A program made the position numbers and the translations under genes. The notes beneath the pieces were generated by a model, which saw only the letters and a list, made by a program, of their open reading frames with translations, searched no databases and was not told the DNA's origin. Below are positions 37,768 through 61,854 of a DNA stretch of 64,000 nucleotides, piece after piece. This stretch comes from Aequorivita lipolytica (GTDB lineage: Bacteria > Bacteroidota > Bacteroidia > Flavobacteriales > Flavobacteriaceae): positions 496,001-560,000 of the forward strand of contig NZ_VORU01000001.1 in assembly GCF_007997135.1 (NCBI RefSeq), read 5' to 3'. The stretch's first letter is position 1, and each line of letters starts with the position of its first letter.

Positions 37768-37783
37768 TATTCTTGGTTAATGG

Positions 37784-37854
37784 GTTGCAGGTTACAAGTT
37801 GCAAGTTGCATCAAAAAAAAACTTGCAACTTGTAACTTTTAACTTGAAACTACT
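37784..37854. repeat. Inverted pair of 7-bp arrays between ddl and lpxB
   Basis: Four units GTTGCAG, GTTACAA, GTTGCAA, GTTGCAT (37784-37811) face five units AACTTGC, AACTTGT, AACTTTT, AACTTGA, AACTACT (37820-37854). 37791-37807 pairs perfectly with 37820-37836 (17 bp). The last units overlap the ddl stop codon at 37850-37852. Confidence 0.85.
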
Positions 37855-54305: not shown

Positions 54306-54353
54306 AGTTTATTGGTTTATGGGTTTAAGAGTTTATGGGTTTATAAGTTTAGA
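54306..54353. repeat. Imperfect tandem array, 6 x 8 bp
   Basis: AGTTTATT, GGTTTATG, GGTTTAAG, AGTTTATG, GGTTTATA and AGTTTAGA follow the ABC-F stop codon after 1 bp. Confidence 0.9.
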
Positions 54354-55762: not shown

Positions 55763-55802
55763 TCTAAACATCTAGCAATCTAAAAATCCAGCAATCTAAC
55801 AA
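55763..55802. repeat. Imperfect tandem array, 5 x 8 bp
   Basis: TCTAAACA, TCTAGCAA, TCTAAAAA, TCCAGCAA and TCTAACAA run into the start codon of the PH-domain gene; the last A is the A of the ATG. Confidence 0.9.
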
Positions 55803-56179
55803 TGAGCTTATTCAACAAAATATTGGGAAACTCCAGTGAGGTTTCTGCCGAAAAATTAAATGAAAAATACGGTCGCCTTTTAATTGATGGTGAAGTTGTG
55901 GAACTCGGTTTCTCACTTTTCCGCGATGTATTTATGTTTACAAACAAACGCCTTATTTTAATTGACGTGCAAGGATTAACTGGCAGTAAGGCTGAATACA
56001 AATGTTTGCCTTATAAACATATTTCGAGATTTTCCTTAGAAACCGCCGGCACTTTCGATCTTGACGCCGAACTAAAAATCTGGATTAGCAGCGAGGATCT
56101 GCCAACTGTAAGCAAAAAATTCAATAAAAGCATAGACATCTACGAAGTGCAGAAATATTTGGCAGCAAAAGTTTTGTAG
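55802..56179 (+). CDS. Bacterial PH-domain protein
   Basis: The product has 125 residues and no signal or transmembrane segment. The fold-forming motif FRDVFMFTNKRLILIDVQGLTGSKAEYKCLPYKHISRFSLETAGTFDLDAELKIW is typical of the bacterial PH (YvbH-like) family. The role is unknown; such proteins are usually cytosolic oligomers. Its start is continuous with an 8-bp-period array. Confidence 0.8.
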   Translation: MSLFNKILGNSSEVSAEKLNEKYGRLLIDGEVVELGFSLFRDVFMFTNKRLILIDVQGLTGSKAEYKCLPYKHISRFSLETAGTFDLDAELKIWISSEDLPTVSKKFNKSIDIYEVQKYLAAKVL

Positions 56180-60340: not shown

Positions 60341-60880
60341 ATGAAAAACCTTTATTACATATTACAGATCACAAGCGTGTTTTTTTTATTTGGATTATCA
60401 TTGGCCTGCGATGATTCTAAGAAAATAAGCTCGTACCATGCAAATCATTGGGAAGATCACTATGTGGATCCCGAAGCCATAGGGACAAAAAGTGATTCGC
60501 TGCAGGAGGGGAAAACTTATTTGAGTATTTATTCGCACATCTATAGTTTTTCATTAGAGAAATCACAGAATTTAACTGCTATGGTAAGCCTTAGAAATGT
60601 GAGCGCTACGGACACTATCTACATTTCAAAAGCAGATTATTACAACACCAAGGGCGAATTGATTCGTCATTATTTTAAGAAACCAATTTATTTGAAACCA
60701 TTGGAAACCGTTGAAATCGTGATAGACGAAAGTGACGAACACGGCGGTAGTGGTGCAAATTTTATTTTTGAATGGTCCACAAAATCTACAACTCCCGAAC
60801 CGCTTTTTGAAGCAATTATGACTTCACTAAGAGGATCGCAAGGTATAAGCTTTACTACTATTGGGAGAAGGATTGATTGA
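60341..60880 (+). CDS. DUF3124-family lipoprotein
   Basis: The product has 179 residues. A lipobox LSLAC gives an acylated cysteine at about residue 23. The body, with YLSIYSHIYSFSLEKSQNLTAMVSLRNVSATDTIYISKADYYNTKGELI and DEHGGSGANFIFEW, matches DUF3124. The function is unknown. It is probably co-transcribed with the preceding esterase. A ten-unit 7-bp array starts immediately after its stop. Confidence 0.8.
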   Translation: MKNLYYILQITSVFFLFGLSLACDDSKKISSYHANHWEDHYVDPEAIGTKSDSLQEGKTYLSIYSHIYSFSLEKSQNLTAMVSLRNVSATDTIYISKADYYNTKGELIRHYFKKPIYLKPLETVEIVIDESDEHGGSGANFIFEWSTKSTTPEPLFEAIMTSLRGSQGISFTTIGRRID

Positions 60881-60950
60881 AATACGAAGTGCGAAGTGCA
60901 AACTACGAAGTGCGAAATATGAGGTGCGAAATACGAAATACAAAATCTGA
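60881..60950. repeat. Imperfect tandem array, 10 x 7 bp
   Basis: Ten units with consensus RRTRCGA (for example AATACGA, AGTGCGA, AGTGCAA, ACTACGA, AATATGA, GGTGCGA) follow the DUF3124 stop codon without a gap. The period is exact over all ten units. Confidence 0.93.
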
Positions 60951-61009: not shown

Positions 61010-61059
61010 CCGAATCCCAAATCAACAAATTCCGAATTAACGAATCACAAATCCCAATA
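61010..61059. repeat. Loose tandem array, 7-8 bp period
   Basis: CCGAATC, CCAAATC, AACAAAT, TCCGAAT, TAACGAAT, CACAAAT and CCCAATA. Weaker than its neighbours; it lies just upstream of the yaaA promoter element. Confidence 0.6.
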
Positions 61060-61092: not shown

Positions 61093-61854
61093 ATGAAAAT
61101 AGTAGTTTCCCCAGCTAAAACGCTGGATTTCGAATCCAAACTTCCCACCACACGCGGCACCCAACCTAAGTTTTTGGAAGAGGCTGAAATGATAAACAAC
61201 AAACTGGAGCGCAAGAGTAAAAAGTCGGTTGCGGAATTGATGGACATTAGCGATAAACTAGCTGAGTTAAATTACCAGCGATATAAAGAATTCAATACAC
61301 CATTTACCAAAGAAAACGCACGTCCTGCGGTTTATGCTTTTGCTGGCGATGTTTACACAGGCCTGGACGCTTACACCATTCCTTCTGAGAAAATTGATCT
61401 TTTGCAGAACTCACTGCGCATACTTTCGGGAATGTATGGAATATTGCGGCCACTGGATTTAATGCAGCCTTACCGTTTAGAGATGGGTACCAAACTTCCG
61501 GTAAACCGCAAAAAGGATTTGCATTCCTTTTGGAAAAAAACACTCACGGAATCGTTAAATGCCGAATTGGAAGATGAAGAACTTTTCCTCAATCTTGCGA
61601 GTGTGGAATACTTTAATGCGATTGACGAAAAGAAACTTAAAGTACCTATAATTTCACCAGTTTTCAAGGATTTCAAAAATGGCAAGCTAAAGATTATTTC
61701 CTTCTTCGCCAAAAAAGCGCGTGGCAGCATGGCTCGTTTTGCCATTGATACTAATGTGAAAACTTTGGAAGATTTGAAAGCCTTTAATTATGACGGTTAT
61801 GGCTATAGTGAGGAATATACATACAAAGAAAGTGAACCTGTTTTTATAAGGTAA
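61093..61854 (+). CDS. yaaA: Peroxide stress protein YaaA
   Basis: The product has 253 residues. The N-terminal [31 protein letters not shown] and the central [45 protein letters not shown] and C-terminal [15 protein letters not shown] are the conserved blocks of this family. In E. coli it protects DNA and proteins from peroxide by limiting free iron. It ends just before a pair of tandem arrays that lead into the next gene. Confidence 0.95.

Follow-up and report, generated by a model that had tools for sequence, protein, structure and literature searches.

The ten-unit array that follows the DUF3124 gene is most probably a slippage-driven, dispensable heptanucleotide simple-sequence repeat in an untranslated gap, of a class that is already known. 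Four observations form the basis of this view, namely the 7-nt period, its excess over shuffled sequence, one whole-unit change and the near-absence of the array in relatives that have both flanking genes.

Structure and setting of the target array

In the window (the whole stretch of DNA that was analysed, 64 kb), the gap between DUF3124 and yaaA is 212 nt long and the target array stands at its opening (Table 1). The array consists of ten GAAGTGC-like 7-mers without indels. Identity was 41/63 (0.65) at lag 7, 40/56 (0.71) at lag 14 and 33/49 (0.67) at lag 21, and just 0.18 to 0.31 at the remaining lags from 1 to 20. TRF delimited the array at 60879–60946, with 9.7 copies, 68% matches and a score of 45. 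Both results bear out the original prediction of ten successive 7-mers without indels. The start, which had been placed at the base after the stop codon, needs correction: since the GA of the DUF3124 TGA stop (60879–60880) already belongs to the 7-nt period, the periodicity begins inside the stop codon. The array had also been called the longest of its kind in the window, and by TRF copies this stands (9.7 against 9.3 for the array 3' of yaaA), whereas the neighbour is far more regular, with 91% matches and a score of 84.

The lag-7 score of the target was 23, a value that 20,000 dinucleotide shuffles of the 218-nt stretch did not reach (maximum 14); shuffled gap sequence of the same composition, proposed as a check, thus never gave an equal score. 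A coding explanation, which had been dismissed from the start, is rejected, as the array lies past the stop codon and its 7-nt unit does not divide into triplets.

The genome belongs to Aequorivita, as the named proteins closest to that of the DUF3124 gene come from Aequorivita records. The TATTTTTGAA core of the block ahead of yaaA lies within 45 nt of the yaaA start in 21 of the 22 gaps found in the genus, and the GTTTTCGTTATTTTTGAAG block is the probable yaaA promoter; the -7 motif of Bacteroidota promoters is TAnnTTTG. A phase-variation contingency repeat was considered as well; the target array lies 3' of a stop codon and 5' of this conserved block.

Table 1. Positions of the target array, its neighbours and the heptad hairpin in the window
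Feature	Position	Strand	Remarks
DUF3124 gene, 179 aa	60341–60880	+	PF11322, E 3.5e-47
Target ten-unit period-7 array	60881–60950	+	periodicity from 60879
Looser second stretch of CGAATCC/CAAATCA-like 7-mers in the DUF3124-yaaA gap	61010–61057	+	by eye; no score of its own
GTTTTCGTTATTTTTGAAG block ahead of yaaA	61060–61078	+	core TATTTTTGAA
yaaA, peroxide stress protein	61093–61854	+	PF03883, E 3.4e-90
More regular 7-bp array TCAACCA, 9.3 copies, 3' of yaaA	61899–61961	+	TRF
Heptad hairpin, a gene-less pair of complementary period-7 arms	37783–37851	-	RNA fold z -4.13

Period-7 arrays in the genome and in the orthologous gaps

The genome sample comprised 864 kb (the window and 40 stretches of 20 kb), divided by our own longest-ORF rule with ATG starts into 107 kb of noncoding and 757 kb of called coding DNA. 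Arrays were counted as self-match segments at each lag and set against shuffles. Of period-7 arrays, the noncoding part had 62 (2.8 in shuffles) and the called coding part 14. Period 8 was a distant second in noncoding DNA (18 against 2.4), periods 6, 9 and 10 were slightly raised (8, 6 and 5 against 1.6, 2.0 and 2.0) and periods 4, 5 and 11 stayed at chance level. Period-8/16 arrays also occur in the window, at 54306–54351 and 55763–55803. Some arrays were near-perfect (TGACTAC in 13 copies) and others, the target among them, strongly diverged, and the units varied between arrays. The proposed class with a common period and no common sequence is confirmed by these counts, as is the expected difference between noncoding, coding and shuffled DNA. 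Recurrence elsewhere held for the period and hardly for the exact unit: of 199 genomes of the family, 4 had GAARTRC three times in tandem and 6 an AAATCCC-type unit, so that the period recurs and the unit does not.

Array density was 0.58 per noncoding kb in the sample of the own genome and 1.05, 0.36 and 0.30 in the samples first drawn from three relatives; another 400 kb from the first of these had 19 arrays in 39.6 kb of gaps. Eight Bacteroidota genomes outside Aequorivita (100 kb each) had 0 to 0.27 arrays per noncoding kb, the maximum coming from a single GC-rich genome with 3 arrays in 11.2 kb. The density was 0.05 in 46 mixed Bacteroidota loci, and 5.6 kb of E. coli noncoding DNA contained no period-7 array. 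Aequorivita is rich in period-7 arrays, the contrast with other taxa coming from small samples.

The position of the arrays relative to genes gave a less uniform picture. In a first pooled look, 33 of the 87 arrays lay close to a stop, where 9.8 were expected, and codirectional gaps had 0.89 arrays per kb, divergent ones 0.24 and convergent ones 0.26. Counting one array per gap, 19 of 45 arrays of the own genome abutted stop codons against 7.0 by random placement, and after removal of two repeat-rich stretches 11 of 34 lay near a stop against 4.1 (the best of 2000 random sets gave 11). Corresponding counts were 10 of 26 against 3.8 for all 600 kb of the relative G007, 3 of 3 for G014 and 2 of 6 for G022. 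In a replicate of 400 kb of G007 drawn afterwards, 3 of 10 arrays were near a stop against 2.4, and the codirectional density of 0.43 was not above the 0.53 and 0.60 of the other gap types. Because of this negative replicate stop-codon anchoring is not relied on here, and together with codirectional preference it was set aside as a general rule; the association in the own genome is suggestive. A stop signal in all frames built into the units was also rejected, as it showed no enrichment in the own genome. A sense-strand stop was present in the consensus unit of 8 of 21 near-stop arrays against 11.4 expected, and of 19 of 31 other arrays against 16.8.

The DUF3124-yaaA gap was followed through 28 genomes of the genus, of which 23 had a DUF3124 match and 22 a gap before yaaA; locus L031 (DUF3124 at 38% identity, no yaaA found) was left out of the 23 loci. 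The comparison of orthologous gaps, suggested as a check, gave a clear period-7 array (lag-7 score of at least 12) in 13 of 22, with differing units; compared with 500 shuffles, 18 of the 22 gaps reached p<0.05. The units were CGAGCGA/CGAATTA in A. soesokkakensis and others and CAAATCT in A. vitellina. The first 32 nt of the array region, stop codon included, are common to four species, so an array at this site predates them. Five of the 22 gaps are just 50–78 nt long. With both genes kept, the array was near-absent or absent at L029, L030, L036, L039, L042, L044 and L047; at L029, L030 and L047 the gap had no period-7 signal. A. aquimaris has just 2.6 units left in a gap of 60 nt, whereas two relatives with flanks 90–91% identical have 17 units in gaps of 147–149 nt. 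From these comparisons the target array appears to be old in the genus yet dispensable. The 365-nt gap at L025 (G008) contains a short array and a longer stretch that by eye has CCCGTAGGGA-like inverted ends.

Windows of G007 and G014 were 97–100% identical over a tract that starts about 100 nt ahead of the DUF3124 stop and takes in yaaA, and 68–93% identical upstream of it; the near-identical tract of the two species (loci L022 and L041) spans at least 1.5 kb. We read it as the probable product of recent recombination. The single difference between the two in the gap is one 7-nt unit (one event), which gives a direct view of the mutational step.

In the explanation that we favour, whole 7-nt units would be gained and lost at the target, presumably by slippage, and base substitutions between these events would make the units diverge. 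The preference for 7 nt would most likely come from the replication machinery, in line with a suggestion that the polymerase might interact with a length of 7 nt (PMC4679880, in the part of the paper available). The excess that peaks at period 7, the arrays of differing units in the orthologous gaps, the absence of a fold at the target gap, the shrunken array of A. aquimaris and the unit step between G007 and G014 count for this explanation. Of the course originally outlined, copying by slippage followed by drift agrees with the one-unit difference in the freshly shared tract (one event), whereas selection does not agree with an array that is absent or tiny in several relatives. Some observations point the other way. 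That most of the genus has kept a period-7 array at a single site is longer persistence than might be expected of a purely neutral, transient repeat. The whole-unit change was seen once and could come from unequal recombination, although we infer slippage as its source. The stop-codon abutment in the own genome is not predicted by slippage alone, and at L025 lag 8 outscored lag 7 (22 against 15).

PF05635 genes, complementary arms and the alternative explanations

A subset of the arrays lies around genes of PF05635, the 23S-rRNA intervening-sequence protein family of small four-helix-bundle genes, for relatives of which the structures 2gsc and 2rld have been solved. According to the available parts of the respective papers, the family has similarity to the Avd protein of diversity-generating retroelements (PMC10053308), occurs in rRNA insertions of CPR bacteria (PMC11270868) and is found beside some cas genes (PMC3936711). 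The own genome has 21 matches, and there are 5–21 per genome across the 28 genomes of the genus. Fifty loci were fetched, made up of the 21 own ones and 29 high-scoring ones of the genus out of more matches. A period-7 array lay within 160 nt of 27 of the 50, compared with 87 of the 641 ORFs of the own sample (Fisher 2e-10) and 55 of the 493 ORFs of G007, the ORF background still including PF05635 genes. Some of the 50 loci are orthologous (L239, L261, L265 and L273 all represent the paaA-paaB site), so the effective number is smaller. In the converse test, 14 of the 72 arrays (86 arrays minus 14 lying mostly within called ORFs) had a PF05635-like stretch no more than 600 nt away, against 2 of 326 array-free gaps (Fisher 1e-9).

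The arms on either side of the gene are often complementary to each other. Among the 50 loci, complementarity exceeded the 95th percentile of mismatched pairs in 39 and the 99th in 12, and 22 ranked first of 50; direct similarity of the arms was also raised (20 above the 95th percentile, 12 above the 99th). In other genera, 80 genomes were searched and 60 had a match; 29 loci were fetched from these, one per genome. Period 7 was present at 18 of the 29 with 0.2 expected from shuffles, whereas periods 4–6 and 8–13 gave 0–3, and complementarity was weaker (9 of 29 above the 95th percentile, 3 of 29 above the 99th). For other genes in the fetched PF05635 loci the control gave 2 of 6 in other genera and 1 of 7 in the genus, numbers too small to draw on. 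An inverted partner within 700 nt that beat all 30 controls was found for 18 of the 72 arrays of the own genome, with about 2.3 expected; the window hairpin is one of these.

The gap between paaA and paaB, identified with NCBIfam models and sorted by eye in 28 species (L286–L313), showed several states of one site. It was an empty 10-nt gap in 3 species, heptad arms around a PF05635 gene in 8 (441–449 nt, one gene apparently broken), arms without a gene in 13 (79–123 nt) and other content in 4. The fold z was below -2 in 10 of the 13 arm-only gaps (best -6.2); in the group with other content, two of three folded gaps were just below -2. By eye the hairpins have at least two different-looking unit families. 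In the own genome the paa (phenylacetyl-CoA epoxidase) cluster at C14:369–379 kb (L112 9300–19100) has five PF05635 matches between genes, four of them with a period-7 array on at least one side; the arms between paaB and paaC are of a hexamer (GAAATC) rather than a heptad.

A search of titles and abstract openings, mostly of non-subscription papers, found no literature that connects PF05635 genes with heptamer repeats or with complementary repeats in intergenic DNA, and we did not find an earlier report of the clustering of period-7 arrays around these genes, often as complementary arms between operon genes, which is apparently unreported. A joint reading, to which we give a low probability, is one in which the Aequorivita period-7 arrays and those around PF05635 genes of other Flavobacteriaceae would be intercistronic, IVS-like selfish elements, each with two complementary heptad arms, with or without a four-helix-bundle gene, placed after a stop. 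The arms would match within an element and differ between elements, gene-less hairpins would be derivatives and solo arrays such as the target would be scars; the protein may recognise the arms.

That the target itself is the leftover single arm of such an element, the other arm having been lost, is unlikely. The proximity of PF05635-like stretches to arrays and the frequent complementarity of the arms at PF05635 loci speak for it, the target too begins at a stop codon between codirectional genes, and the orthologous gap of L027 (G022), with a weak period-7 signal, forms a strong hairpin (z -8.2). Against this, the other 21 of the 22 orthologous gaps have a fold z above -2.4, and 54 of the 72 sample arrays lack a significant partner. 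The target lacks an inverted partner up to 700 nt away (10.0, control mean 9.8), none of the 22 DUF3124-yaaA gaps, its own included, has a trace of PF05635 (best E 1.6), and its gap gave no RNA fold signal (z +0.45); an RNA hairpin and a PF05635 remnant at this site are rejected on these grounds. The target is therefore a solo array, like most of the sample.

A functional role as a 3' untranslated or regulatory element, such as an array bound by a protein and kept at period 7 by selection, is less probable still. Its long retention, with the period kept while the sequence changes, and its tight position after the stop codon would fit such a role, whereas the relatives listed above keep both genes with little or no array, a 5-nt difference between L034 and L041 breaks the phase, and no RNA structure was found at the target; nor was there any indication of function at the DUF3124-yaaA locus. 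Chance or composition has next to no probability left and is ruled out by the shuffles of the gap and of the genome sample.

As a heptanucleotide simple-sequence repeat, the target on its own belongs to a repeat class already known, and its evolution is seen site by site. The class ties together two unexplained matters, the bacterial preference for 7-nt units and the role of the widespread PF05635 four-helix-bundle genes outside rRNA, and if the link were causal both questions would become testable in culturable marine bacteria.

Comparison with known repeat systems

CRISPR was rejected, the target units being head-to-tail without spacers. Ribosomal intervening sequences (IVS), as described in the available part of PMC4990558, have complementary ends and an S23 ORF and are excised by RNase III. 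The PF05635-linked subset resembles them, from sequence alone, in the protein family and in an ORF within complementary ends, and the 441–449 nt at paaA-paaB compare with 428 nt for the IVS of Coxiella (PMC4990558, same part). The PF05635-linked elements differ in lying between operon genes, not in rRNA, and in having heptad repeats as arms; the target array has neither an enclosed S23/IVP ORF nor a stem.

GGGNATC heptamers of Xanthomonas and Nostoc are, in the accessible text of PMC4692102, mostly noncoding, preferably between aligned ORFs, and many lie within 50 bp of stop codons or overlap them; their sequence is another one, and the target has no GGG tract in its units. As the target lacks G-tracts, a quadruplex reading does not apply. 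The cyanobacterial heptamers of the Calothrix type go by the name STRR. They are likewise tandem heptanucleotides, with three fixed unit sequences (Calothrix, cited in the part of PMC4692102 at hand).

A 2015 paper describes TAACTGA direct repeats, with other heptamers, in A. sublithincola and Gramella (PMC4679880, in part). As here, these are intergenic heptamers, in A. sublithincola of the same genus, that are not evident at the same gap in close relatives; the words "four helix", "S23" and "intervening" do not occur in the main text of that paper (PMC4679880). The target unit is not TAACTGA.

A survey of long simple sequence repeats from 2007 is reportedly Mrazek's. According to the available text of PMC4679880, an earlier survey had found heptanucleotides to be the commonest long repeats in the majority of its genomes. 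The heptanucleotide simple-sequence repeats of PMC4679880 and PMC4692102, as far as the accessible parts describe them, share with the present arrays the 7-nt unit and the over-representation in many genomes, and slippage linked to the polymerase has been proposed for them. The arrays described here are often strongly diverged, with units that differ by locus, and at the one gap followed they persist while the units change. The target has tandem 7-nt units beyond chance and varies in unit number (one event), and its class is mostly noncoding, as the counts above demonstrate. The original prediction had named no element with these properties; heptanucleotide repeats are in fact a recognised, over-represented bacterial class, known from Aequorivita sublithincola among other species (PMC4679880 and PMC4692102, in the parts available), and the target therefore belongs to a known kind.
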